DNA from: an uncultured Rubrobacteraceae bacterium
Lineage (GTDB): Bacteria; Actinomycetota; Rubrobacteria; Rubrobacterales; Rubrobacteraceae
Assembly: GCA_902806085.1 (NCBI GenBank)
Contig: CADCVH010000106.1
Location: 509 to 64,508 of the forward strand
DNA: 64,000 nt
Reading direction: 5' to 3'
The translations under genes were made by a program, and so were the position numbers. Position 1 is the first letter of the stretch. Every line of letters starts with the position of its first letter. A model generated the notes under the pieces. The model had not been told where the DNA came from and did no database searches. It saw only the letters and a list, made by a program, of their open reading frames with translations. This document shows, one piece after another, positions 21,044-60,519 of this stretch.

Positions 21044-21068
21044 AAATCCGATAAAAAGTGTCGGATTT
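21044..21068 (+). promoter_or_regulatory. Sulfur-regulon palindrome, copy 1 (cysH promoter)
   Basis: AAATCCGA (21044-21051) and TCGGATTT (21061-21068) are perfect inverted arms around 9 bp. The inner 17 bp, CCGATAAAAAGTGTCGG, matches CCGACAAAATTTGTCGG at 36748-36764 (CCGAYAAAAWKTGTCGG). It ends 3 bp before the -35, centred near -51, a position more typical of activation than of simple blocking. The binding protein is not in the window. Confidence 0.65.
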
Positions 21069-21107: not shown

Positions 21108-21194
21108 ATGGAGTTGCAAAGTACGCAGGGACAGGTGAAGAGGCGAATGTTTACGGCGCTTCTCGCGGGCGCTCGATGTAGCGTGTGCGCCTGA
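21108..21194 (+). CDS. Leaderless Cys-containing leader peptide of the cysH operon
   Basis: The 28-codon frame MELQSTQGQVKRR...LLAGARCSVCA begins 7 nt after the -10 and ends with Cys-Ser-Val-Cys-Ala-stop, 40 nt before the cysH ATG. Leaderless short frames ending in Cys codons act as cysteine-responsive attenuators upstream of sulfur genes in mycobacteria. The RR..ALLAGARCSVC pattern also resembles the short leader peptides seen before streptomycete sulfur genes. The cysH ribosome site (GGAGG near 21226) could be masked or freed by ribosome position on this frame. Function is inferred from position and composition. Confidence 0.6.
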   Translation: MELQSTQGQVKRRMFTALLAGARCSVCA

Positions 21195-21234: not shown

Positions 21235-21990
21235 ATGCCTGAAGCCCTGCGTTCGCAGCAGAGAGGAAACATAGTGCCGGACCCGGAGGGGCTCGACCTC
21301 GAGTCCAACCGGCTCGAGGGGTCCGACCCTCGCGAGATAATCCGGTGGGCCGTGGAGACCTACGGCGACGGCCTGGCGCTCTCGGCTTCCTTCGGGGGTG
21401 GGGAGGGCATGGCGCTGCTGGACATGATCTCCAAGATCACCAACAGGGTGACGGTCCTCACGATCGACACCGGCTTTATCTTCAAGGAGACCGCCGAGTT
21501 CCGCGAGGAGGTAATGCGCCGGTACAAGCTGCCGGTCGAGGTCCTCAGGCCGGCGTTGACGGTCGATGAGCAGGTCGAGCGCTACGGGGAGCAGATGCGC
21601 ACCTGCACGCCCGACCTTTGCTGCCAGGTCCGCAAGATAGAGCCCCTTCAGAGGGCCCTTGGCCGCTACGACGCCTGGATGACCGGCATCCGCCGGGTGC
21701 AGACGCCCCAGCGGGCCACCACGAAGATCGCCGCGTGGGAGGAGCGCTACGGCGCCGCCAAGGTGGCGCCCCTCGCCGGCTGGACCGACGAGCAGGTCTG
21801 GGATTACGTCAGGGAGCACGACGTCCCCGTCAACCCGCTGTTGCACCAGGGTTACAAGAGCATCGGGTGCGAGCCCCAGACGAGGCCCGTCCACGACGAC
21901 GAGGATCCCAGGGCCGGACGCTGGTCGGGCACGGAGAAGACCGAGTGCGGCCTTCACTGGGTCGGCAACGGCGGCCGCGCGGGCTCGTAG
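21235..21990 (+). CDS. cysH: APS/PAPS reductase (CysH), atypical cluster motif
   Basis: The 251-residue protein reduces adenylyl-sulfate (or PAPS) to sulfite. It shows SASFGGGEGMALLDM at the nucleotide pocket, TIDTGFIFKET, the tandem cysteines in DLCCQVRK, the GWTDEQVW segment, and the C-terminal catalytic ECGLH. The double Cys suggests the [4Fe-4S] APS-type enzyme, but the second pair, normally C-x-P-C, reads CEPQ: one cluster ligand is Gln. ATG 21235 has GGAGG 8 nt upstream. It is the first structural gene of the operon, 54 bp before sulfite reductase. An adjacent APS kinase gene leaves APS versus PAPS use open. Confidence 0.88.
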   Translation: MPEALRSQQRGNIVPDPEGLDLESNRLEGSDPREIIRWAVETYGDGLALSASFGGGEGMALLDMISKITNRVTVLTIDTGFIFKETAEFREEVMRRYKLPVEVLRPALTVDEQVERYGEQMRTCTPDLCCQVRKIEPLQRALGRYDAWMTGIRRVQTPQRATTKIAAWEERYGAAKVAPLAGWTDEQVWDYVREHDVPVNPLLHQGYKSIGCEPQTRPVHDDEDPRAGRWSGTEKTECGLHWVGNGGRAGS

Positions 21991-22044: not shown

Positions 22045-23679
22045 ATGCGTTTTCTCAGGGAGGGCCAGACCCTCAACAAGGTAGAGAAGATAAAGCTCCA
22101 GCGCCACCCGCTGGAGGTGAAGCAGGCGATAATAGACACCTACTCCAAAGACCTCTCCAAGATGGACGAGGTCCCCGGGGAGGTCGAGCGCCTCAAGTGG
22201 GTCGGCGTCTACCCGCAGAAGCAGGGCGGGGACGCGTTCATGATGCGCGTGAAGGTGCCTGGCGGCGTGCTCACGCCGAAGCAGACGGAGGTCATCGGCA
22301 AGATCGCCGTGGACTTCGCCAACGGCCCGATCCCCAACCCGCACTTCGGCAACAACTTCCTGGACCTCACCACGCGCCAGGACGTGCAGATGCACTGGCT
22401 CAAGATGGGGGACATCCCCGAGGTCTGGCGCAGGCTCGAAGAGGCGGGCATAACCACCGTGCAGGCGTGCGGGGACTCCGCCCGCAACGTGCTCTGTTGC
22501 CCCGTCTCCGGCCTCGACCACGAGGAGGTCATAGACGCCTACCCTGTGGCCCAGGCCATAAACGACTACTTTACCGGCAACCGCGAGTACGCGAACCTGC
22601 CGCGCAAGTTCAAGATGAGCGTTACCGGCTGTTTGGAGGACTGCGCGCAGGCCGAGATCAACGACATCGGCCTGCTGCCCGCGCGCCTGGAAGACGGGAC
22701 CATCGGCTTCAACCTGCGCGTGGGCGGCGGGCTGTCGGACGGGCCGCGGATGGCCTCCGACATAGACGTGTTCGTCAGGCCGGAGGACGCCGTCGAGATC
22801 ACGCGCGGCATAGCCCAGGTCTTCGGCGAGCTCGGCGACCGGGAGAACCGCTGGACGGCCCGCATGCGGTACCTGGTGCAGCGGATCGGCCCCGAGGCCT
22901 TCCGGGACGAACTCGAGAAGCGCGTCTCGGTGGAGCTCACGCCCGCGGGCGAGGACCTGACCAAGCGCTATCGCGGCGACCACGTCGGCGTCCATCCCCA
23001 GAAAGACGGCCTCCACTACGTCGGGCTGAACGTCCCGGTGGGCCGGATGAGCGGGGAGCACTTCATGGAGGCCGGGCGTCTGGCCGGGCGGTACGGCAGC
23101 GAGGTGCGCCTGGCCACGGACCAGAACCTCGTCATCACGGGCGTTCCCGAGGACCGCATCGACGATCTGCTGGGCGAGCCCCTGCTGGGGCGGTTCTCGC
23201 CGAGCCCCGGTGCCTTCGGGCGGGGTGTCGTTGCCTGCACGGGGAGCGAGTTCTGCCGGTTCGGGATCGTGGAGACCAAGATCCGGGCCGTCGAGTGGGC
23301 GAAGGAGATGGACGAGCGCGTGGGCGACGTCGGGCAGGAGGCCGTGAGGATGCACTTCTCCGGCTGCTCGGCGTCCTGCGCGCAGCCCCAGATAGGCGAC
23401 GTGGGTTTCCGCGGCGAGACGGCCAAGACCAAGACCTCCATCGTCGAGGGGGTGGACATCGGCCTCGGCGGATCTTTGGGGCGGGACGCCGCGTTTATCG
23501 ACTGGGTGGAAGGGGCTAAACCCACGGAGGAGGTTCCGGACGCCCTCGTCTCCGTCTTCGAGCAATTCAAGGAGGAGGGGCGCGAGGACGAGCGGTTCCA
23601 CGAGTGGGCGCGGCGCAAACAGAACGGGGAGCTGCGCGAGGCGTTGCGCCGGCCCGCGAAGGTGGGGGGGCGCGAGTAA
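22045..23679 (+). CDS. sir: Assimilatory sulfite (nitrite/sulfite) reductase, siroheme [4Fe-4S]
   Basis: A 544-residue hemoprotein reductase with the duplicated ferredoxin-like and siroheme domains. The cluster/siroheme ligands appear as C-T-G-S-E-F-C (about 400) and C-S-A-S-C in SGCSASCAQPQIGD (about 440). The first half carries TTRQDVQMHW and TGCLEDCAQAEINDIG. It would reduce sulfite to sulfide with six electrons. Gene order between cysH and an FrhB-like protein, with sat and cysC downstream, favours sulfite over nitrite. Its TAA overlaps the ATG of the FrhB-like gene (TAATG), so the two are translationally coupled, which suggests a complex or an electron-transfer pair. Confidence 0.88.
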   Translation: MRFLREGQTLNKVEKIKLQRHPLEVKQAIIDTYSKDLSKMDEVPGEVERLKWVGVYPQKQGGDAFMMRVKVPGGVLTPKQTEVIGKIAVDFANGPIPNPHFGNNFLDLTTRQDVQMHWLKMGDIPEVWRRLEEAGITTVQACGDSARNVLCCPVSGLDHEEVIDAYPVAQAINDYFTGNREYANLPRKFKMSVTGCLEDCAQAEINDIGLLPARLEDGTIGFNLRVGGGLSDGPRMASDIDVFVRPEDAVEITRGIAQVFGELGDRENRWTARMRYLVQRIGPEAFRDELEKRVSVELTPAGEDLTKRYRGDHVGVHPQKDGLHYVGLNVPVGRMSGEHFMEAGRLAGRYGSEVRLATDQNLVITGVPEDRIDDLLGEPLLGRFSPSPGAFGRGVVACTGSEFCRFGIVETKIRAVEWAKEMDERVGDVGQEAVRMHFSGCSASCAQPQIGDVGFRGETAKTKTSIVEGVDIGLGGSLGRDAAFIDWVEGAKPTEEVPDALVSVFEQFKEEGREDERFHEWARRKQNGELREALRRPAKVGGRE

Positions 23680-24878
23680 TGGCGGGCTTCGACATCCGGG
23701 AGATGATGAACGACATCGACGAGGCCCCCGGGAAGGTCTGGTTCTGGGACCTGGAGCAGGCCGTCATCGACGCGGACCGCTGCGTGCAGTGCGGCGTGTG
23801 CGTGGCCGCCTGCCCGACGGACTCGATCGGCATAGGCGAGGACGACCTGCCCGAGCTCGTCAAGATGTGCACGGGTTGCTCTTTGTGCTGGGACTTCTGC
23901 CCTAGAGGCGGGCTCCAGTACGAGGCGACGTGGAAGATCACGGGCAACGGCAACGGCCACAGGGGCAACGGCCTCGGGCACGTCGAGGAGAGCTACACCG
24001 CCAAGGTGGACCCGGCCATAGAGGGGGTTCAGGACGGCGGGTTCGTGAGCGCGCTCCTGACCTCGCTTCTCGAAAACGACGAGATAGACGGCGCCCTCGT
24101 CGCCCGCGAGAGCGCGACGGAGCGCTGGAAGGGCGAGGCGTTCCTCGCGACCACGCCAGAAGAGGTCCGCGAGTGCGCCGGCAGCTTCTACAACCAGACG
24201 TTGGCCCTCGGTCACGTCGACTTCAAGGGCTACGACTTGCCGCCGAACCCGCGCATAGCGGTGGTCGGGACCCCGTGCGAGATCGAGGGAATAAAGGCAA
24301 TGCAGGCTAGGCCCTGGACCTGGGGCTCGTCGCAGGTCGAGGCCATCACCCTCACCATCGCGCTTCTCTGCACCAAGAGCTTCAACTACGAGAAGTTGAT
24401 GCTGGAGGAGATCCGGGACAAGAGGAACGTCGACCTCGACAACGTCGGGCGGGTCGACATCATGCGGGGGAAGATGATCGTGCAGAACCTGGAAGGCGAG
24501 ACGGTCTTCGAGGAGCCGATCCGGGACTTCCACAACGCCGCCTTGAAGGGCTGCGACGAGTGCGCGGACTTTATGGGCCACGCGGCGGACATAAGCGTCG
24601 GCAGCGTCGGGAGCGCCGACGGCTACTCGAGCGTCCTCGTTCGCTCGGAGGAGGGCCTGGCGGCCTTCGAGCACGTGAGGGGCAGTTTGTTAACCCGGCC
24701 GCTTGACAAACCGCAGGCATTGGATAAGCTTGACGCTTTGGATAAGAGGGTGGCTTTTAGCAGCCTCAAGCGGGCCTTCGACCCCGACGCCCCGCTCTTT
24801 ATAGACTACGAGGAGCACCTGAACGACTACGCCGGGACGGACCGCGCTCCGGTCGAGCACGAAGCGGTGAGGTATTGA
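23679..24878 (+). CDS. Ferredoxin-domain FrhB-type F420H2 oxidoreductase, likely partner of sulfite reductase
   Basis: A 399-residue protein. Residues about 30-75 hold two [4Fe-4S] ferredoxin motifs, CVQCGVCVAACP and CTGCSLCWDFCP. Residues about 85-370 match the coenzyme F420 hydrogenase/dehydrogenase beta-subunit family (FrhB/FpoF): VVGTPCEIEGIKAM in the N-terminal part, and CDECADFMGHAADISVGSVG before SSVLVRS in the C-terminal part. FrhB proteins oxidise F420H2 through FAD and pass electrons to Fe-S clusters. In archaeal Fsr the same module is fused to a sulfite reductase. Here the two are adjacent and overlapping (ATG at 23679), so this is probably the electron donor. ATG 23679 follows a GGTGGGGGG ribosome site. 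Confidence 0.85.
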   Translation: MAGFDIREMMNDIDEAPGKVWFWDLEQAVIDADRCVQCGVCVAACPTDSIGIGEDDLPELVKMCTGCSLCWDFCPRGGLQYEATWKITGNGNGHRGNGLGHVEESYTAKVDPAIEGVQDGGFVSALLTSLLENDEIDGALVARESATERWKGEAFLATTPEEVRECAGSFYNQTLALGHVDFKGYDLPPNPRIAVVGTPCEIEGIKAMQARPWTWGSSQVEAITLTIALLCTKSFNYEKLMLEEIRDKRNVDLDNVGRVDIMRGKMIVQNLEGETVFEEPIRDFHNAALKGCDECADFMGHAADISVGSVGSADGYSSVLVRSEEGLAAFEHVRGSLLTRPLDKPQALDKLDALDKRVAFSSLKRAFDPDAPLFIDYEEHLNDYAGTDRAPVEHEAVRY

Positions 24879-25211
24879 TTGGCACGCGCCCTGGAGAAAC
24901 TCCCCCTGCGAGAGGAGCCCGTAGAGCTACGGGTCCAGACCCGCGCCCTTCTCGAGGAGTCGCCCGAGGAGGGCGCGCGCCTCGTAGGTGAGGCGACCTT
25001 TGTCGCCGACCTCCTCTGGGAGGACTGGAGGGGGACCCTCGAACCGGCCGGCATGCCTCACGAGCGCTTTGTGGAGATCTCGCGCGGCTACTCCGACGAG
25101 CTCAGGCTCTGGGTGGTCGGAGAACGTCCCTGGGACCACTGCGCGGCCGGGTTGGCCGGCCGCGTCCAACGCAGGCTACCGGCCACAGAGGCCATCCACG
25201 CGGAGGTATAA
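24879..25211 (+). CDS. Sulfate-operon protein of unknown function (110 aa)
   Basis: TTG 24879 directly follows the stop of the FrhB-like gene, and the frame ends 3 bp before the sat start, so the gene is firmly inside the operon. The product is acidic and mostly helical (VELRVQTRALLEESPEEGARLV; FVADLLWEDWRGTLEPAG; ELRLWVVGERPWDHCAAGLAGRVQRR) with a single Cys in WDHC. No family was recognised. Its place between the sulfite-reducing pair and ATP sulfurylase suggests an accessory role in that pathway, for example assembly or regulation. This is inferred from position only. Confidence 0.7.
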   Translation: MARALEKLPLREEPVELRVQTRALLEESPEEGARLVGEATFVADLLWEDWRGTLEPAGMPHERFVEISRGYSDELRLWVVGERPWDHCAAGLAGRVQRRLPATEAIHAEV

Positions 25212-25214
25212 AAC

Positions 25215-26414
25215 GTGACCACAAGCACCACGCAGCAAGAGATGATAGCCCCCCACGGCGGCGAACTGATAGACCGCCGGGCGCCGGAGGGCGAGCGCGA
25301 CGCGCTGCTCCAGAAGGCCGAGGGCCTGAGCAAGGTAACGCTCGAGCCGCGGGCGCTCTCGGACCTGGAGATGATCTCCACGGGCGTCTTCTCCCCGCTT
25401 ACGGGCTTTATGACCCAGGCGGACTACGACTCCGTCGTCGAGACGATGCACCTGAAGAACGGCCTGGTCTGGAGCCTCCCGATCACCCTCTCAGTAAGCG
25501 ACGCCGAAGCCGCCGCCTTAAACGAGGGCGACGAAGTGGCCCTGACGGACGGCGAGGGCCGCGTCCTCGCCACGATGCTCGTCGAGGACAAGTATTCCTA
25601 CGACAAGGAGCGCGAGGCCCGCGAGGTCTTCGGCACGACGAACGACGAGCACCCGGGTGTGGCCGCCGTCTACCGCCAGAAGGACACCCTGATCGGGGGC
25701 GAGGTCACCCTCCTCGTGGACGACCCGAACCCGAAGCCCTTCCCCCAGTACCACTACGAGCCGCGCGAGCTTCGCAGGGTCTTCGCCGAGAAGGGTTGGA
25801 AGCGCGTCGTCGGCTTCCAGACGAGAAACCCCGTCCACCGCTCCCACGAGTACATCCAGAAGAGCGCGCTCGAGATCGTGGACGGCCTCCTGCTAAACCC
25901 GCTGGTCGGCGAGACCCGCGCAGAAGACATCCCGGCTGACGTCAGGATGCGCTCCTACGAGGTCATCCTCGAGAAGTACTACCCGAAGGACCGCACCCTC
26001 CTCAGCGTCTTCCCTGCCGCCATGCGCTACGGCGGGCCGCGCGAGGCCATCTTCCACGCCGTCTGCCGCAAAAACTACGGCTGCACCCACTTCATCGTCG
26101 GGCGCGACCACGCAGGCCCGGGCAAGGATTCCAGCGGCAAGCCGTTCTACGGGGACTACGACGCCCAGCACATCTTCGACGAGTTCGAGGAAGGCGAGAT
26201 AGGCCTTACGCCCCTCTTCTTCGAGCACTCCTTCTTCTGCCTCGTCTGCCAGGGCATGGGCACCACCAAGACCTGCCCCCACGGCAAGGAGAACCACGTC
26301 TTCGTCTCGGGCACCAAGGTCCGCGAGATGCTCCAGAAGGGCGAGTACCCGCCCCCGGAGTTTTCCCGCCCCGAGGTCATCGAAGTCCTCATGGAGGGCC
26401 AGAAGACCGCCTAG
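25215..26414 (+). CDS. sat: Sulfate adenylyltransferase (ATP sulfurylase)
   Basis: A 399-residue Sat that activates sulfate with ATP to APS. It has the PUA-like N-terminal domain, the [12 protein letters not shown] active-site motif (about 199-210), [10 protein letters not shown] (about 296) and the C-terminal zinc-binding cluster [18 protein letters not shown], as in bacterial and archaeal monofunctional Sat. It lacks the C-terminal kinase domain of fungal enzymes; the kinase is the separate cysC gene downstream. The GTG start follows GCGGAGG. It supplies the substrate of cysH in the same operon. Confidence 0.95.
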
Positions 26415-26496: not shown

Positions 26497-27066
26497 ATGG
26501 AGAACGGGACGAGGCGTGGCGGGTTCACGCTGTGGTTCACCGGGTTGTCCGGGGCGGGCAAGACGACGATCGCTGAGATCGTCGAGAAGGAGCTCCGGAT
26601 GCGGCACGGCAAGATCGAGGTATTGGACGGGGACATCGTCAGGACGAACCTCTCCAAGGGCCTCGGCTTCAGCCGGGAGGACCGGGACACGAACGTGCTT
26701 CGGATCGGGTTCGTGGCCGACCTTCTCACGCGCAACGGCGTCGGCGTGATCGTCTCGGCCATCTCGCCGTTCAAGGAGGTTCGGGACCAGGTGAGGCGCA
26801 ACATTGGCGAGGGCTTTATCGAGGTCTTCGTGGACGCGCCGCTCGACGTGTGCGCCGATCGGGACGTCAAGGGCCTCTACGCGAAGGCCTTCAGCGGTGA
26901 GATCCCGCAGTTCACCGGCGTTTCGGACCCCTACGAGGCGCCCGTAGCCCCCGAGCTCCACATAAAGACCAACGAGGAAGAGCCGGCCGAGAGCGCCGCG
27001 CGGGTCGTGCGGTACCTCGAGGAGCAGGGTTTCCTCCAGCCCGTTCCGGAGTTCAACCGGGCCTAG
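26497..27066 (+). CDS. cysC: Adenylylsulfate (APS) kinase
   Basis: A 189-residue P-loop kinase phosphorylating APS to PAPS. Walker A is [11 protein letters not shown] (about 16-26); [24 protein letters not shown] covers the substrate loop, and [21 protein letters not shown] plus [11 protein letters not shown] the lid. The ATG follows AAAGGAGAGG. An 82-bp gap after sat carries an inverted repeat (TAACA-TT-TGTTA near 26423) and several GCAAC repeats, so some independent control is possible. Having cysC beside a cluster-type cysH suggests PAPS is made either for CysH or for sulfation. Confidence 0.93.
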
Positions 27067-27069
27067 GGA

Positions 27070-27870
27070 ATGTTCGACGCCACCCCCACCCTCTTCGGCC
27101 TGCTGGTCGGTTTTTTGGTAGGCCTTACGGGGGTGGGCGGCGGCTCCCTGATGACCCCTTTCCTGGTGGCGGGGCTCGGGGTCCCGGCCCCGACGGCCGT
27201 CGGGACGGACATGGTCTTCGCCACGCTCACGAAGTTCACCGGCTCGGTCCAGCACTACCGGCAGCGGTCGGTGAACCTCGAGGTGGCGCTGTTTTTGGGG
27301 TTCGGGAGCATACCCGCGGGGTTGCTCGGGGTGGCGACGCTTGAGTGGATGGAGGGCGCCTTCGACCCGGAGACGTTGACGTCCATCATGATCACCGTCA
27401 TAGCCTGCACGCTCGTGCTAGTGGGCGCGTCCCTGATCTACCGCAACTACTTCATGCCGAACCGGGATGACAGCCCGAGACCCCACGTCTGGGACGGGAA
27501 GGGCCGGATGAGCACCCGGCGACGGGCTTACACGGTCGTCTTCGGCGCCCTGGGCGGCTACCTCGTCGGCCTTACCTCTATAGGGTCGGGCAGCGTGATG
27601 GCCGTGATCCTGCTCCTCCTCTACCCGCTTGCCCCGGCCGTCGTCGTGGGCACCGACATCGCGCACGCCACCGTCCTCTCCCTGGTCGTCGGCCTCGCCC
27701 ACATGACCCAGGGCAACGTGGACTTCGGCCTCGCCGGCTCGCTGCTCCTCGGCGGCCTCCCCGGCGTCCTTATCGGCAGCCGCATCGCCCCCCGGCTCCC
27801 CGGCAAACCGCTCAAAACGGTCCTCGCCATCATGCTAATATTCGTCGGCCTCAGGCTGCTCCTCTCTTAA
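27070..27870 (+). CDS. TSUP (TauE/SafE) family permease, probable sulfate/sulfite transport
   Basis: A 266-residue membrane protein with eight or nine helices and the duplicated TSUP signature: GLTGVGGGSLMTPFLVAGLGVPAPTAVGTDM in the first half (split here by family convention) and GLTSIGSGSVMAVILL with VVGTDIAHAT in the second. TSUP proteins move sulfite, sulfate or other sulfur anions across the cytoplasmic membrane. ATG 27070 is 4 bp after cysC, so it is the last gene of the operon; sulfate uptake is the likely role here, though export of excess sulfite is possible. Confidence 0.85.
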   Translation: MFDATPTLFGLLVGFLVGLTGVGGGSLMTPFLVAGLGVPAPTAVGTDMVFATLTKFTGSVQHYRQRSVNLEVALFLGFGSIPAGLLGVATLEWMEGAFDPETLTSIMITVIACTLVLVGASLIYRNYFMPNRDDSPRPHVWDGKGRMSTRRRAYTVVFGALGGYLVGLTSIGSGSVMAVILLLLYPLAPAVVVGTDIAHATVLSLVVGLAHMTQGNVDFGLAGSLLLGGLPGVLIGSRIAPRLPGKPLKTVLAIMLIFVGLRLLLS

Positions 27871-28178: not shown

Positions 28179-29240
28179 GTGAGACGAGAAGCGGAGGAGG
28201 CGCGGTTGGTCGGCGACGGCGGCCCGAGCTTCGGGCTCTGGTACGATTTCCGGCAGAGGTTGCCGCTCGGGGACTACGCGGCCTTCTACGCCGAGTGCCT
28301 GGAGGAGATCGAGGAGGGTGAGCGGCTCGGCTTCACGGGGGCCTGGCTCTCCGAGCACCACTTCGTGGACGACGGCTACCTGCCCTCGCCGCTCGTGGTC
28401 GCGGCGGCCGTGGCGGCCCGCACGAAGAGCATCACCATCGGCACGAACATCCTGCTCCTCCCGATGCACCACCCGCTGCGGGTGGCCGAAGACGCGGCGG
28501 CCGTCGACCTCGTCTCCGGCGGGCGGTTCGTTCTCGGGGTCGGGCAGGGCTACGTCCAGCACGAGTTCGAGGCTTTGGGCTACGAGAGGCGGTACAGGCC
28601 CTCGCTTTTCGAGGAGGGGATCGAGATTATCCGGCAAGCCCTCGAGGAGGGGCGCACCGGCCACGAGGGGAGGCGGTGGAGCTTCGACGATCTGCCGTTC
28701 GAGCCGCGTCCCTCGGGGAAGCTCCCGATCTACGCGGGCGCCTTCGCCGACCCCGCCATAGACCGGGCCGCCCGGCTGGCCGACGGGTTCCTGGCCTCCG
28801 CCGGCGGCGGGGCTTTCGGGGATACGTATAGGAAGGTGCGCGAGGCCCTGGAGCGGCACGGGAGGTCGGGCGAAGAGTTCCCGTACGTCGCCTCCGGGGT
28901 GGCGTTCGCGCACGAGGACGCGGGGAGGGCGCGGAAGATCGTTGGCCCCGCCATCGCCTACCAGCGCACGCGCTACGCGGAGTGGGGGACGGACCGGGAG
29001 AAGCCCCGTCCGGAGCCCATGAAGGAGGAAGATCTGCCGTGGGAGCGCTACCTCGTCGGCACGCCCGAGGAGGTGGCCGACGGCCTGATCGGGCTTCATA
29101 GGGAGGCGCCATACGACCACTTCTGCTTCTGGGGCCGGCTCCCGGGCGTGACCCACGAAGAGGCCCTGGAGAACCTGCGCCTCTTCGCCACCGAGGTCGC
29201 CCCGCGGGTGCGCGAGGCCGTGGGATCGAAGCCGGCGTGA
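28179..29240 (+). CDS. LLM-class (luciferase-like) flavin/F420-dependent oxidoreductase
   Basis: A 353-residue (beta/alpha)8 luciferase-like protein. Family features include WLSEHHFVDDGYLPSPL near residue 60, TNILLLPMHHPLRVAEDAA, VSGGRFVLGVGQGYVQHEF and PIYAGAF. Members use FMN or coenzyme F420. The His-His in the first loop is common to FMN-type members, so the cofactor is open. The GTG start has no strong ribosome site. Its stop overlaps the GTG of the PPOX-nitroreductase fusion (GTGA), so the two are co-translated, which favours an F420 link. Confidence 0.8.
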   Translation: MRREAEEARLVGDGGPSFGLWYDFRQRLPLGDYAAFYAECLEEIEEGERLGFTGAWLSEHHFVDDGYLPSPLVVAAAVAARTKSITIGTNILLLPMHHPLRVAEDAAAVDLVSGGRFVLGVGQGYVQHEFEALGYERRYRPSLFEEGIEIIRQALEEGRTGHEGRRWSFDDLPFEPRPSGKLPIYAGAFADPAIDRAARLADGFLASAGGGAFGDTYRKVREALERHGRSGEEFPYVASGVAFAHEDAGRARKIVGPAIAYQRTRYAEWGTDREKPRPEPMKEEDLPWERYLVGTPEEVADGLIGLHREAPYDHFCFWGRLPGVTHEEALENLRLFATEVAPRVREAVGSKPA

Positions 29241-30301
29241 CCCTGGCCTCCCCCGTCCTGTCCCCGGAGCAGACCGCCTTCCTCGTCCGCCAGCGGGTCG
29301 CCCGCCTCGCCACCGCCGACGCCGAAGGCCGGCCCCACGCCGTCCCCGTCTGCTTCGCCCACGCGCCCGGCGCCGTCTACATCGCCCTCGACGAGAAGCC
29401 GAAAGACGTACCGCCAAATCGTCTCAAGCGCGTCCTCAACATCCTGGAGAATCCCAACGTCACCCTCGTTGCCGACCGCTACGTCGAGGACTGGAGCCTC
29501 CTGGCGTTCGTCATGGTGCGCGGCCGGGCCGGGTTGCTGCAGCCCGGCGCTCTAGAGCACGCCGCCGCCGTGAGGCTCCTGCGCGGCAAGTACCACCAGT
29601 ACGAGCGGATGAAGATAGAGGAGAACCCGGTCATCGCGGTCCGGGTGGAGAAAGCGACCTCCTGGGGCGCTCTGGACGAACCGGAGACCTCCGCGCAGCC
29701 GGTCCTCGGCGCCATCAGGGGGCGCCGCTCCGTGCGGCGCTACCTCCCCAAAGAGGTGCCGGACGGGGCCGTCGAGCGGGTGCTCGAGGGCGCCCGCTGG
29801 GCACCCTCGCCCCACGGCCGCCAACCCTGGCGCTTCGCCGTCGTTACCAAAGAGGAGACCAAAGTGCGGCTCGCCGACGCGATGGGCGAGGAGTGGCGGT
29901 CGAACCTCCAGATGGACGGGCAGGACGCCGGGATCGTCGAGAAGCGCCTCGAAGGCTCCAGGCGGCGTTTGCTGGACGCGCCGGTCCTGATCCTGCTCTG
30001 CCTGTACCTCGAAGACCTCGACGTTTATCCTGACCCGGATCGCCAGGAGAACGAGACCACGATGGCCGTCCAGTCCCTCGGCGCTGCGGCGCAGAACGCG
30101 CTGCTCGCGGCCCACGGCCAAGGGCTCGACGCCGGCTGGATGTGCGCCCCGCTGTTTTGTACGCAGAAAGTGGTGGAAGCCCTCGGCCTCGATCCGAAGC
30201 TAGTACCCCACGCGCTTCTCACGCTCGGCTACGCTGAGGGAGACCCCCCGAAGCGCCGCGGTCGCAGGCCGCTCGACGAGCTAGTGGTGTACAGGGACTG
30301 A
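29237..30301 (+). CDS. PPOX-nitroreductase fusion (Rv0121-like domain plus FbiB C-terminal-like domain)
   Basis: A 354-residue two-domain protein. Residues about 8-145 are a split-barrel PPOX domain (RQRVARLATADAEGRPHAVPV; GRAGLLQPG; KYHQYERM) resembling the Rv0121 F420-associated family. Residues about 155-345 are a nitroreductase (GRRSVRRYLPKEVPDGAVE; ARWAPSPHGRQPWRFAVV; SLGAAAQNALLAAHGQGL; APLFCTQKVVEALGL) closest in pattern to the C-terminal domain of mycobacterial FbiB, which reduces dehydro-F420-0. It is coupled by a 4-bp overlap to the LLM gene. A role in F420 maturation or F420-dependent redox chemistry is likely but not proven. Confidence 0.8.
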   Translation: MTLASPVLSPEQTAFLVRQRVARLATADAEGRPHAVPVCFAHAPGAVYIALDEKPKDVPPNRLKRVLNILENPNVTLVADRYVEDWSLLAFVMVRGRAGLLQPGALEHAAAVRLLRGKYHQYERMKIEENPVIAVRVEKATSWGALDEPETSAQPVLGAIRGRRSVRRYLPKEVPDGAVERVLEGARWAPSPHGRQPWRFAVVTKEETKVRLADAMGEEWRSNLQMDGQDAGIVEKRLEGSRRRLLDAPVLILLCLYLEDLDVYPDPDRQENETTMAVQSLGAAAQNALLAAHGQGLDAGWMCAPLFCTQKVVEALGLDPKLVPHALLTLGYAEGDPPKRRGRRPLDELVVYRD

Positions 30302-34310: not shown

Positions 34311-36671
34311 TCACCCGGCGGAGTACGACCTCTCAGGCACGCCGTAGAGGGTGTTGCGGCGGCGGGGGGTGCGGCCTACCTCCCGGATCATGGCCTCCAG
34401 GTCCGAAGGCGTCATCTCCTGGCCGTGGCTTGCCCCGGCCGCCCGGCTGATGCTCTCGTTCATGAGCGTGCCCCCGAGGTCGTTGCAGCCGGCCTGCAGG
34501 CACGCCTTGGCCCCCTCGGCCCCGAGCTTTACCCACGAAACCTGCACGTTATCTATGTGGCCGTGGAGCGCGATCCTCCCGACCGCGTGCATCTTGATCG
34601 TCTCGGCGAAGGTCGGGCCCCTGCGGGAGCGGCCCTGCAGGTAGAGCGGGGCGCCCATGTGGACGAACGGCAGCGGCACGAACTCGGTGAAGCCGCCGGT
34701 GTCCGCCTGTATGTCCCGCAGGACCATGAGGTGCCGCGCCCAGTTCACGGGCCCGTCCACGTGGCCGAACATTATGGTCGTCGTGGCGGAGAGCCCGACC
34801 GCGTGCGCCTTGCGCATCACCTGCGCCCACTGGGCGGTGTTTATCTTGTCGGGGCAGATGATCTCGCGTACCTCGTCGTCGAGCACCTCGGCGGCCGTAC
34901 CCGGCAGCGTGCCGAGCCCCGCCTCTTTTAGCTCCACCAGGAACTTCTCGACCGATATCCCTAAAGTGTGCGCGCCCTGCCACACCTCGAGCGGCGTGAA
35001 GGCGTGGACGTGCATCCCGGGCACCTCGTCCTTTACCGCGCGCAGGTAGTCGAGGTAGTTCTTGCCCGTGAAGCTGCCGTGGATGCCCCCGACCATGCAG
35101 ACCTCGGTCGCGCCCTTCTCCCACGCCTCCCGCGCCCTTCGGGCCACCTCCGTCGTGTCCAGGAGGTACGGGTCGCCTCGCAGGTTCAGGGATTTCGGTC
35201 CCTTGGAGAAGGCGCAGAAGCGGCAGCGGAAGTAGCACTGGTTCGTGTAGTTGATGTTCCTGTTGACGACGTAGGTGACCTCGTCACCGTTGACCTCGCG
35301 CCTGAGCCCGTCCGCCACCCGGCAGAGCTCCTCGAGCTCCGTCCCCCGCGCCGTGAAGAGCAGGGCTATCTCGTCCTCGCGCAGGTCCCTGGTCCCCGCC
35401 GCGGCCAACGCCCTCGCGAAGTTCGGCCGCAACTTCGACGGACGCAGCCCGCGGGCCTCGCCTAAAGCCTTGGCCGGGACGGGCTCGGTGGTGCCGGGCG
35501 CCCAGTCTTCCGTCCTCGCGAAGCCCTCGGCGTCCTGGGCGGCCCACACCCCGGGGCGCAGGCGCTCGTCCACCCACGTCCCGGCGTTGCGGGCGTAGGA
35601 GGGATGGAGGGCGAGGCGTTCGAGGAGCAGGTAGCCCTTGGCCTCCGTCGCCTCTTCCAGCTCCCGGAGGTGGGGCCAGGGACGCTCGGGGTTTACGTGG
35701 TCGGGGGTGACGGGGGAGACGCCGCCCCAGTCGTTTATGCCGGCTTCCACGTAGCGGCCGTAGGAGGGCGTGCCGTCGCCCCGCGGCCCCGCGAGGTTCG
35801 GGGGGGCCTGGACCGTGACGTCCGGGGGGAGGAGCAGTCGGGCGAGGGCGATGGTTGCCAGCATCTCGTCCTCGGTGGGTTCCGGGAAGAGGGCCATGCG
35901 GGTGCCCGGCTTGGCCCGGAAGTTCTGGACGATGCATTCTTGAATATTGCCGTGCTCGTCGTGGATCTCGCGTATCGCGAGTAGCGTGTCCACCCGCTCC
36001 TCGACGGTCTCGCCGATGCCGATCAGGATCCCGGTCGTGAACGGCACCCCGAGCTTTCCGGCCTCTCGCATGGTCTTGAGGCGCTTGGCGGGCACCTTGT
36101 CCGGCGAGGCCCAGTGGGCGAGGTTCGGGCCTAGCAGGCGGTCGGAGGCCTGCTCCAGCATGATCCCCTGCGAAACCGAGACGTGCCTGAGATCCCGCAC
36201 CTCCCCGGCCGAGAGCACCCCCGGGTTCGCGTGCGGCAACAGCCCCGTCTCCTCGAGCACCAGCCGGCAGCAGTGGGCCAGGTACTCGATGGTGGTGCCA
36301 AAGCCCATCTCCCGCAGCTCGCGCCTGGCCTCGGGGTAGCGCTTTTCGGGCTTGTCCCCGAGCGTGAAGAGCGCCTCTTTGCACCCGGCTTCGGCGCCCG
36401 CTCTCGCTATCTCCAGAACCTCCTCGGGCGTGAGGTAGGCCTTCTCGCCGGGACGGGGGCCGTGGGCGAACGTGCAGTAGCCGCAGTTGTCGCGGCAGAG
36501 CTTCGTGAGGGGGATAAAGACCTTGCGCGAGTACGTGACGCGGGGCCCGAAATGGCGGTCGCGGATCTCCGAGGCCGCCTTCATGGCAGGCTCTGGGTCG
36601 GCGTAGGCCGCCCATGCCAGCTCGTAGATCCCCTCGCGTCTCTCCCCGTCGGCCGTCGCCGCGTGCACCAA
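34311..36671 (-). CDS. fbiC: FO synthase, fused CofG-CofH radical SAM enzyme (FbiC)
   Basis: This makes 7,8-didemethyl-8-hydroxy-5-deazariboflavin (FO), the chromophore of coenzyme F420, from tyrosine and a flavin precursor. The protein has two radical SAM domains: CofG with CRDNCGYC near residue 58 and CofH with CYFRCRFC near residue 475, the order of mycobacterial FbiC. The start is set at TTG 36671 (or GTG 36668) because GAGGGGG lies about 8 nt upstream. The longer open frame to 36893 would run through the divergent promoter and operator. The product is about 786 residues. It shares its upstream region with the sulfurtransferase gene. Confidence 0.93.
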
Positions 36672-36704
36672 AGCTGCGTACCCCCTCGTCTCTTGCGGAA
36701 GGGC

Positions 36705-36710
36705 AGTATA
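36705..36710 (-). promoter_or_regulatory. -10 box of fbiC
   Basis: TATACT on the minus strand, about 34 nt before the TTG start. The -35 is poor, so an activator bound at 36748-36764 (centred near -57) could be needed. Confidence 0.45.
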
Positions 36711-36747
36711 CTCCCGATCCGCCCGACCGGAATCCCCGGGCCGAAAT

Positions 36748-36764
36748 CCGACAAAATTTGTCGG
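36748..36764. promoter_or_regulatory. Sulfur-regulon palindrome, copy 2 (fbiC / sulfurtransferase)
   Basis: CCGACAAAATTTGTCGG is a perfect dyad (8-bp arms, 1-bp centre) and matches the cysH operator at 13 of 17 bases, including both outer halves. It lies between divergent genes. For the sulfurtransferase it sits in the -35 region, where binding would block polymerase. Confidence 0.65.
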
Positions 36765-36772
36765 GGATCGGA

Positions 36773-36778
36773 TAGAAT
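36773..36778 (+). promoter_or_regulatory. -10 box of the sulfurtransferase gene
   Basis: TAGAAT, 37 bp before GTG 36816. The -35 region falls inside the palindrome 36748-36764 (CCGACA-like). Confidence 0.5.
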
Positions 36779-36815
36779 ACTCCCTCGTGGAACTAAAAAC
36801 CGAGAAGGGAGTCTC

Positions 36816-37685
36816 GTGAGCGAGCAGCAGATAGAGCAGAAGGGTTACGCCCATCCTGAGGCGCTTGTAAGCACCGACTGGGTCGCGGAGCACCTCGACG
36901 ACCTCGAGAACGTGCGCATCGTGGAGTCAGACGAGGACGTGTTGCTCTACGAGGTGGGGCACATCCCGAACGCCGTCAAGATCGACTGGGTGGAGGACCT
37001 CAACGACCCCGTCGTGCGCGACTACCTCGACCCGGAGAAGTTCGCCCGGTTGATGGGCGAGAAGGGCATAGGCCCGGACACGAAGGTCGTCTTTTACGGG
37101 GACAAGAACAACTGGTGGGCCACCTACGCCCTGTGGGTCTTCCGCCTCTTCGGCCACGACAACGTCGCCATCATGGACGGGGGACGGGTCAAGTGGGAGG
37201 CCGAGGGACGCGAGATGACCCAGGAGGTCCCCTCCGTGCCCGCGGCCGAGTACCCGACGCCCACCCGCGACGACTCGGCCATCCGGGCCTTCAAGGCCGA
37301 CGTCGAGAAGCACGTCCAGGCCAACGGGCAGATGATCGACGTGAGGAGCCCCGGCGAGTACTCGGGCGAGCTCCTTCATATGCCGGACTACCCGCAGGAG
37401 GGCGCTTTGAGGGGCGGGCACATCCCGGGGGCGGCGAACGTGCCGTGGGCGCGGGCGGCGAGGGAGGACGGCACCTTCAAGAGCGCCGACGAGCTCAAGG
37501 AGATCTACGAGGGCGAGGCGGGCCTCTCCGGGGGCGACGAGGTCGTGGCCTACTGCCGCATCGGGGAGCGTTCCAGCCACACCTGGTTCGTCCTCGAGTA
37601 CCTCCTCGGCTACGACAACGTCCGCAACTACGACGGCTCCTGGACGGAGTGGGGCAACTCCGTGGGCGCCCCCATCGAGCGGTAG
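36816..37685 (+). CDS. Thiosulfate sulfurtransferase (two-domain rhodanese)
   Basis: A 289-residue tandem rhodanese transferring sulfane sulfur. The N-terminal inactive domain has [20 protein letters not shown]; the C-terminal domain has [24 protein letters not shown] and the active-site loop [12 protein letters not shown] with Cys about 249. GTG 36816 has GAGAAGGGAG 5 nt upstream. A NifU-like gene follows 12 bp later, so the pair probably handles sulfur mobilisation. The promoter palindrome ties it to the sulfate operon. Confidence 0.9.
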
Positions 37686-59550: not shown

Positions 59551-60519
59551 ATGAAGATCGGCTACAAGTTGATCGCGGAGGTCTATTCGCCCCAGGAAAT
59601 GGTGCGCCAGGCCGCCCGCGCCGAGGAGGCCGGCTTCGACTTCGTCGAGATCAGCGACCACTTCCACCCCTGGTTCGACAGTCAGGGCCACTCCGGCTTC
59701 GCCTGGTCGATCCTGGCGGCGATCGCGATGCGCACCGAGCGCATAGGGTTGGCCACCGGCGTCACCTGCCCCTTCCTCCGCTACCACCCGGCCGTGATCG
59801 CCCAAGCCGCGGCCACCACCGCGCTGCTCTCGGAGGGGCGCTTCACTTTGGGCGTCGGGGCAGGAGAGCGGCTCAACGAGCACGTCGTCGGCCGGGGCTG
59901 GCCGGCGGTGGGCGCGCGCCACGAGATGTTCCGCGAGTCCTTGGAGATCATCAGGCTGCTGTGGTCGGGCGGCTACCGCTCCTACGAGGGCAAGCACCTT
60001 ACCCTCGAGGACGCGCGAATCTTCGACCTGCCGGAGACGCCGCCCCTTATCGCGGTGGCCAGCGGCGGCCCGTCCTCGGCCCGCATCGCCGCCGAGCTCG
60101 GCGACGCCATCTTCGTCACGGAGCCGAGGACGGGCATAATGGACGCCTACGCCGGGGCGGGCGGGGACGGCCCGAGGTACGCCGAGGTGCCGCTCTCGTG
60201 GGCCCCCGACGAGGCTGAGGCCGCGAGGTCGGCGCGCGAGCAGTTCCGCTTCGGCCTGACCGGGTGGAAGGTCCAGTCGGAGCTGCCGAACCCGGTCAAC
60301 TTCGAGGCCGCGACGGCTTTCATCACCGAGGACGACATGCGCGGGGTGTTCGGCTGCGGGCCCGACACCTCCGCCCACCTCGGGGTGGCCCAACAGTTCG
60401 TGGACGCCGGCTACGACCACCTCGCGCTGATCAACGCGGGTCCGGACCCCGAGGGGTTCTTCGGCTTCTTCGCCTCCGAACTGGCCGGGCCGATGCGGGC
60501 GCTTACGCCCCCCGGCTGA
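59551..60519 (+). CDS. F420-dependent glucose-6-phosphate dehydrogenase-like LLM protein
   Basis: A 322-residue protein with the FGD-type signature: GYKLIAEVYSPQEMVRQAAR, EEAGFDFVEISDHFHPWFDS, GHSGFAWSILAAIAMRTERI, TGVTCPFLRYHPAVIAQAAA and GRFTLGVGAGERLNEHVVG. The S-D-H-F-x-P-W and H-S/A-x-F-A-W motifs contact F420 in mycobacterial Fgd1, which oxidises glucose 6-phosphate and makes F420H2. A related sugar phosphate or alcohol could also be the substrate. AGAGGAGG precedes the ATG. It could regenerate F420H2 for the sulfite-reducing pair at 22-25 kb. Confidence 0.85.
   Translation: MKIGYKLIAEVYSPQEMVRQAARAEEAGFDFVEISDHFHPWFDSQGHSGFAWSILAAIAMRTERIGLATGVTCPFLRYHPAVIAQAAATTALLSEGRFTLGVGAGERLNEHVVGRGWPAVGARHEMFRESLEIIRLLWSGGYRSYEGKHLTLEDARIFDLPETPPLIAVASGGPSSARIAAELGDAIFVTEPRTGIMDAYAGAGGDGPRYAEVPLSWAPDEAEAARSAREQFRFGLTGWKVQSELPNPVNFEAATAFITEDDMRGVFGCGPDTSAHLGVAQQFVDAGYDHLALINAGPDPEGFFGFFASELAGPMRALTPPG

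Follow-up and report, generated by a model that had tools for sequence, protein, structure and literature searches.

Sulfur assimilation in Rubrobacteria: a putative aFsr-type sulfite reductase with two subunits and F420H2 as donor

The 64,000-nucleotide stretch of DNA analyzed here (the window) comes from an uncultured member of the Rubrobacteraceae and carries a siroheme sulfite reductase gene, sir, directly followed by a gene for an FrhB-like protein. The two products are probably the subunits of an aFsr-type enzyme, an assimilatory sulfite reductase with F420H2 as its electron donor. This assignment, made from sequence comparison, is based on the pairing of the two genes, the residues of the F420 site, the F420 enzymes that are the nearest solved structures, the linkage to cofD and fbiC, the single sir gene, and the lack of a convincing counter-example genome. 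The sir-frhB pair is standard in the bacterial class Rubrobacteria. The initial annotation of the window had proposed a split Fsr, the archaeal F420H2-dependent enzyme, working in assimilation. Its separate subunits, F420H2 donor, and assimilatory role are well supported by comparative evidence; the relation to a split Fsr, the supporting Fgd enzyme, and the novelty of the idea are not. An aFsr, with an alpha subunit of the aSir type and a beta subunit of the Fsr-N type, acting as an F420H2-dependent assimilatory enzyme, was already put forward in 2012 for haloarchaea (Susanti and Mukhopadhyay, PMC3448663).

Gene pair and operon setting

The Rubrobacteraceae genome that contains the window spans 4.41 Mb in 133 contigs. 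The pair lies in an operon-like gene row, cysH-sir-frhB-orf110-sat-apsK-tauE:

21235–21990, + strand: cysH, 3'-phosphoadenylyl sulfate or adenylyl sulfate ((P)APS) reductase, sulfite-making (profile searches)
22045–23679, + strand: sir (aFsr-alpha), NirA/aSir-type siroheme-[4Fe-4S] sulfite reductase, 544 amino acids (Pfam NIR_SIR twice, NIR_SIR_ferr twice)
23679–24878, + strand: frhB-like (aFsr-beta), N-terminal 2x[4Fe-4S] ferredoxin domain, variable linker, and flavin adenine dinucleotide (FAD)/[4Fe-4S]/F420 oxidoreductase domain, 399 amino acids (Pfam, PDB, Foldseek, F420-loop residues)
24879–25211, + strand: orf110, small all-helical protein, third gene of the sir-frhB-orf110 cluster (conservation in related loci, AlphaFold)
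25215–26414, + strand: sat, ATP sulfurylase (profile searches)
26497–27066, + strand: apsK, APS kinase (profile searches)
27070–27870, + strand: tauE, TauE/SafE-family permease (Pfam)

The initial description of this region holds. The sir and frhB-like reading frames share base 23679 in a one-base overlap (TAATG), in which the frhB-like ATG (23679–23681) takes the A of the sir stop codon TAA (23677–23679). The second gene encodes two [4Fe-4S] motifs and an FrhB domain, with FrhB_FdhB_N and FrhB_FdhB_C exceeding the Pfam cut-offs. The setting is one of sulfate assimilation, with cysH upstream and sat, apsK, and the TauE/SafE-type permease gene downstream. The FrhB-like protein has the features of an aFsr beta subunit, being a separate, adjacent Fsr-N homologue with an FrhB domain and two N-terminal [4Fe-4S] clusters, and sir, a separate aSir-type siroheme reductase subunit, has those of the alpha subunit. 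The genome encodes one sir and one FrhB_FdhB_C protein and therefore has no second member of either family for assimilation.

Conservation of the pair

Related loci were sought in one genome per species across 84,980 species, and the best 80 of 255 related loci were kept. These include Rubrobacteria, many Acidimicrobiia, one Chloroflexota genome, and others. The sir gene lies directly upstream of frhB, in line, in 79 of the 80 loci; the exception (L063) begins within frhB at a contig end. The FrhB-like gene occurs in 33 of the 39 genomes of the class Rubrobacteria, spread over 12 of its 13 genera. The comparison of Rubrobacteria neighbourhoods suggested in the initial annotation, which foresaw co-occurrence of sir, the frhB-like gene, and fbiC, gave consistent adjacency of the first two, with sir upstream. 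Downstream fbiC was seen in two loci (L049, L055). The same sir-frhB order occurs in three Actinomycetota genomes, with proteins about 40% identical, and in three Chloroflexota genomes. As controls, 20 NirA-type sirs from other Actinomycetota were inspected, and none has frhB nearby.

Homologues of the FrhB-like protein, 45–55% identical, are found on seven haloarchaeal plasmids. In six of the seven, sir overlaps or abuts frhB upstream; for the seventh (L188), tblastn detected no sir in the short unannotated stretch examined. The haloarchaeal loci inspected are on megaplasmids and have no cys genes nearby. In Natronococcus occultus (L164, 3556–5955) and Halomontanus rarus (L165, 3338–5878), the sir match lies inside an annotated rhodanese-domain protein of about 800–850 amino acids. 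The Natronococcus pair adjoins nosZ.

A tree of 61 FrhB proteins, in which the Fsr rows are partial sequences taken from the PDB search alignments, recovers the sir-linked family, with all 37 of its rows, as a single clade (100/100). Haloarchaeal rows fall inside this clade and Fsr-N rows outside it; some branches are long, and the deeper order is unsure.

The FrhB-like subunit and its F420 site

The closest solved chains to the FrhB-like protein are 8riu_B (E 1e-39), 8rja_E, Fsr, and FrhB/Frh, all of which are F420-coupled. A Foldseek search with the predicted model gives the same ranking as sequence, with 8riu, 8rja, and 7np8 at the top and HCAR weaker. In FrhB, S209-V210 and the turn 163IGKGK contact F420, and C104, C134, C192, and C195 hold the cluster (PMC3591093). 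Mapped by offset from the cluster cysteines, S309-V310-G-S312 of the FrhB-like protein falls at S209-V210 and I261-M-R263-G-K265 at 163IGKGK. The alignment shows C200, C231, C292, and C295, the counterparts of the four FrhB cluster cysteines, to be invariant. It also has S-V-G-S in every row from Rubrobacteria and Acidimicrobiia, and in these rows the turn glycine is flanked on both sides by a basic residue (K, R, or H). G-(I/L)-G is the usual sequence at the S-V-G-S position in 20 further actinobacterial FrhB homologues.

The FrhB-like protein has 12 cluster cysteines, and every one is conserved. The eight ferredoxin cysteines among them are all present, whereas Fsr and 8riu_B each have one replaced. 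The linker between the ferredoxin and FrhB domains measures 40–90 residues in Rubrobacteria. Actinomycetota widely carry a second FrhB family (L189–L208), 31% identical, whose genes have no sir neighbour; in one genome (G061) it adjoins cofD.

The reductase subunit

Sir has two NIR_SIR repeats and no ferredoxin domain (Pfam). Its PDB matches are ferredoxin-nitrite reductases and NirA at E 1e-79 to 1e-95, the best (about 1e-95) being ferredoxin-nitrite reductases, and Fsr at just 1e-9. Fsr (EC 1.8.98.3) is a single-chain fusion with a single-repeat Dsr-LP-type reductase that contains an inserted ferredoxin domain. Here there are two open reading frames (ORFs), and sir is not of that type. The initial statement that the window holds the same two modules as Fsr is thus wrong for the reductase, which is of the two-repeat NirA/aSir type, and the FrhB partner belongs to its own clade outside Fsr-N.

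The siroheme-cluster cysteines, C398-x5-C404 and C441-x3-C445, are kept in all 116 sir homologues. Residues Y56 and C142 are the equivalents of Tyr69 and Cys161 in Mycobacterium tuberculosis NirA, numbered after subtraction of an 11-residue tag that was deduced from the chain length. In NirA, Cys161 is bonded to Tyr69. Four invariant cysteines in the N-terminal repeat of sir (C142, C152, C196, and C200) were considered as ligands of an extra [4Fe-4S] cluster for electron entry from the FrhB subunit. The quartet is present in all complete partnered sirs but also in 12 of 20 unpartnered ones, so its presence does not indicate FrhB coupling, and C142 is the equivalent of the Tyr69-bonded Cys161. 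At most, these cysteines might hold a further [4Fe-4S] cluster. An in-frame TGA considered in unpartnered sirs proved to be the terminal stop in the two checked.

F420 biosynthesis and F420-linked genes

The window also carries genes for F420 synthesis and for proteins related to F420 enzymes:

34311–36893, − strand: fbiC (fused CofG/CofH), F420 biosynthesis (1128 bits against a cut-off of 1018)
28179–29240, + strand: luciferase-like (LLM-class) oxidoreductase, probably F420-dependent (TIGR03619, 153 bits, below the cut-off of 166.9)
29237–30301, + strand: PPOX-class F420 oxidoreductase fused to an FbiB-C-type nitroreductase domain (profile search)
59551–60519: TIGR03557-family LLM protein (452 bits against a cut-off of 210; 170 against 420 for the Fgd equivalog)

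Two of these genes, fbiC and the PPOX-nitroreductase fusion, had been named initially and are confirmed. The third, described as an Fgd-like F420H2-generating protein (59551–60519), scores far too low for the Fgd equivalog and is a clear TIGR03557 member. The LLM and PPOX-nitroreductase genes are found downstream in several genera. Adjacent cofD and cofE genes on contig C34, together with fbiC in the window, indicate a host that makes F420.

The initial annotation had named genomes with the pair and no F420 biosynthesis genes as contrary evidence. CofD was judged in 70 pair genomes, and no convincing case was found. It exceeds the cut-off in 65 of them; below the cut-off, it is in pieces in G024 and G146 and truncated at a contig start in G357, and the draft assemblies G363 and G394 have nothing convincing. 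Among 346 sampled Actinomycetota, cofD is present in 31 of 34 pair-positive and 155 of 312 pair-negative genomes (Fisher p 2e-6, shared ancestry ignored). The three cofD-less pair genomes are draft Rubrobacteria whose contigs end less than 2 kb upstream of sir, short of the expected place of cofD. With Rubrobacteria excluded, all five pair genomes have cofD (p 0.06). The Chloroflexota counts (3 of 3 pair genomes, 156 of 251 others) are uninformative. Linkage says more than these co-occurrence counts: of the 24 Rubrobacteria with both genes placed, 23 have cofD at a distance of 4.0–8.7 kb from frhB (median 4.3 kb), the exception being the window genome.

Weighing the electron donor and the substrate

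Several points count against F420H2 as the donor. As candidate sources of F420H2, no Fgd equivalog exceeds the cut-off in the window and no Fno exceeds it in eight Rubrobacteria. The cofD gene is frequent in general, with 54% of sampled Actinomycetota and 62% of Chloroflexota carrying it, which makes its co-occurrence with the pair weak and not phylogenetically independent, and its linkage to the pair was not seen outside Rubrobacteria. The FrhB-like model is moderate, with a predicted local distance difference test (pLDDT) score of 61 and a predicted template modelling score (pTM) of 0.66. Haloarchaeal rows keep the F420 loop, but the turn varies and some positive residues are missing, and N replaces S309 in the f8 rows; the F420-site argument is therefore strongest for the window's own group. 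The cysteine quartet shared with unpartnered sirs belongs here too. Finally, the open-access literature yielded no biochemical test of any aFsr member, F420H2 oxidation included.

The main rival holds that the donor of the FrhB-like protein is reduced ferredoxin, as for the FrhB-family chlorophyll enzymes BciB and HCAR, and that the electrons go on to sir or some other substrate. BciB, an FAD/Fe-S member of the FrhB family, is ferredoxin-dependent (PMC4836224); HCAR is among the fold matches of the FrhB-like model, and NirA-type reductases elsewhere accept ferredoxin directly. This explanation is nonetheless unlikely. HCAR is a far weaker match, with 17% identity to the FrhB-like protein compared with 27–29% for the F420 enzymes, and a flavin between ferredoxin and a ferredoxin-accepting reductase would have no evident purpose. 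Rubrobacteria and Acidimicrobiia also keep the F420-contact loop, and cofD and fbiC show linkage to the operon.

Siroheme enzymes often accept both sulfite and nitrite, which makes it conceivable that the pair serves in F420H2-dependent nitrite reduction, or in sulfite or nitrite detoxification, rather than in assimilatory sulfite reduction. A precedent is FsrII of anaerobic methanotrophic archaea (ANME), which performs F420H2-dependent nitrite reduction and no sulfite reduction (PMC9295563), and nosZ next to the Natronococcus homologue fits the same idea. The location of the Rubrobacteria genes within cysH-sat-apsK, the lack of a second sir in the window genome, and the Tyr-Cys pair that sir shares with the sulfite-reducing NirA of M. 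tuberculosis make such a role improbable.

NAD(P)H as the donor in place of F420H2 is more improbable still. NADPH is the usual donor of CysJI, and no F420H2-generating enzyme was found for certain here. However, an NAD(P)H-binding domain is absent from both proteins (Pfam, NCBIfam), we know of no FrhB-family protein that uses NAD(P)H directly, and the nearest solved relatives use F420. That the FrhB-like protein is co-regulated with sir but has a separate job, such as balancing F420 and ferredoxin pools, while sir works alone with free ferredoxin, agrees with the 20 control sirs of NirA type that have no frhB neighbour, yet is scarcely credible given the unbroken pairing from Rubrobacteria to haloarchaea, which extends to megaplasmids without nearby sulfur genes and to overlapping reading frames.

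Proposed mechanism

Gene order, cofactor-binding residues, fold family, and F420 synthesis are observed, and the electron path is deduced. In the scheme proposed for the pair, sulfite would come from CysH, and the FAD of the FrhB-like subunit would take up a hydride from F420H2, as the conserved FAD and F420 sites of that subunit suggest. The flavin would split the electron pair and send single electrons to the FrhB-domain [4Fe-4S] cluster and on to the two clusters of the ferredoxin domain, whose cysteines are present. This domain may act as a built-in, tethered ferredoxin that docks where NirA-type reductases bind free ferredoxin. It may also move between flavin and reductase, as suggested by the varying linker length. 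The siroheme-[4Fe-4S] centre would then receive six electrons per sulfite and yield sulfide for cysteine. With values of about −380 mV for F420H2 and −116 mV for sulfite/sulfide (PMC10229431), electron flow from the first to the second is downhill.

The conserved protein orf110

After frhB, orf110 is present in 72 of the 80 related loci and absent in the haloarchaeal ones. Conserved features are P14, LW-x2-W, E74, LW-x2-GER-x-W, and GLAGR-x2-RR. The AlphaFold model is all-helical (pLDDT 90), and no Pfam, NCBIfam, or PDB fold match was obtained. A correspondence with the domain fused to haloarchaeal FrhB was rejected, as that extension is low-complexity. Speculatively, orf110 may assist assembly or docking of the pair.

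Candidate regulatory elements upstream of cysH and fbiC

Three candidate elements were found:

21044–21068: palindromic operator-like site AAATCCGATAAAAAGTGTCGGATTT, followed closely by a promoter-like sequence, TTGACG-N17-TACTAT
21108–21194, + strand: candidate cysteine leader peptide MELQSTQGQVKRRMFTALLAGARCSVCA, a short ORF between promoter and cysH that ends in ARCSVCA and a stop
36744–36768: second palindrome copy AAATCCGACAAAATTTGTCGGGGAT, an exact core match between the divergent fbiC and rhodanese genes

The common palindrome core has exactly two exact matches in the 4.4-Mb genome, and a reversed control pattern has none. The operator that cysH and fbiC were initially proposed to share is borne out at the level of candidate sites. 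Because the second copy sits between divergent genes, either fbiC or the rhodanese gene could be its target. It falls inside the listed fbiC ORF, and the listed GTG start of fbiC is therefore probably too far upstream. At least eight other Rubrobacteria loci have a related palindrome ahead of cysH.

In Rubrobacteria, roughly half of the regions upstream of cysH contain a short ORF that has two or more Cys close to its end, often as RCSVC, compared with 7% of random 350-bp pieces. Cysteine leader peptides are known from Mycobacterium, and the candidate before cysH resembles them (PMC1262725, PMC4633059). Together, the palindrome and the Cys-tailed short ORF point to possible joint control by sulfur status.

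Implications

Bacterial F420 is mostly known for the reduction of unusual substrates. An F420H2-dependent sulfite reductase would place it in a central, perhaps essential pathway, the supply of sulfur for cysteine. It would also give the 2012 aFsr proposal a bacterial test system and a reason for F420 genes beside sulfate-assimilation genes in Rubrobacteria, and it would mean that F420H2-sulfite coupling arose at least twice, in Fsr and aFsr. A more far-reaching version is tentative and rather doubtful: F420H2 might be obligate for sulfur assimilation in Rubrobacteria and many Acidimicrobiia, with a heteromeric reductase, a tethered, moving ferredoxin domain, and orf110 as a dedicated subunit or maturation factor. 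If true, it would be the first case of an F420-dependent sulfite reductase demonstrated for bacteria.

Relation to known systems

Bacterial aFsr sequences have appeared before. The tree of the 2012 study (PMC3448663) includes a Thermobaculum sequence and Rxyl_0964 from Rubrobacter xylanophilus, and the Rubrobacter sequence recurs in a 2022 alignment (PMC9295563). No discussion of the bacterial distribution of aFsr was found in the open-access literature. What is new here is this distribution, the F420-sulfur supercluster, the conserved orf110, the two-site palindrome, and the cysteine-rich leader ORF.

The window pair resembles haloarchaeal aFsr in having two separate subunits, one aSir-type and one Fsr-N homologue, and the beta subunits share a clade. 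Unlike the megaplasmid loci, which have no cys genes nearby and in two cases rhodanese-sir fusions, the window pair is bacterial and chromosomal, belongs to a full sulfate-assimilation operon, is linked to F420 genes, and is followed by orf110.

The reductase resembles M. tuberculosis NirA (1ZJ8) in architecture, siroheme-cluster cysteines, and the Tyr69/Cys161 pair. NirA-like control genes differ in having no frhB partner beside them, and the closest NirA-like sirs have an insertion after Tyr69 that the window sir lacks. The CODH/Fwd F420-reductase subunits of Ca. Ethanoperedens (8RIU, 8RJA; PMC11493965) are likewise stand-alone plug-ins that join a two-cluster ferredoxin domain to an F420-reductase domain. 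However, they run toward F420 reduction and serve CO and formylmethanofuran oxidation.

Group I Fsr from Methanocaldococcus and Methanothermococcus also combines an F420H2 oxidase (FAD, one [4Fe-4S], and a two-cluster ferredoxin domain) with a siroheme reductase, but in one fused chain with a single-repeat, Dsr-like reductase and an inserted ferredoxin domain; one ferredoxin Cys is replaced, and cluster 3 has a Glu ligand (PMC10229431). The window system has two chains with sir first, a two-repeat NirA-type reductase, and all eight ferredoxin cysteines. The reductase type and the position of the FrhB clade outside Fsr-N suggest that the F420-sulfite couplings of Fsr and aFsr share a principle and were probably assembled separately.

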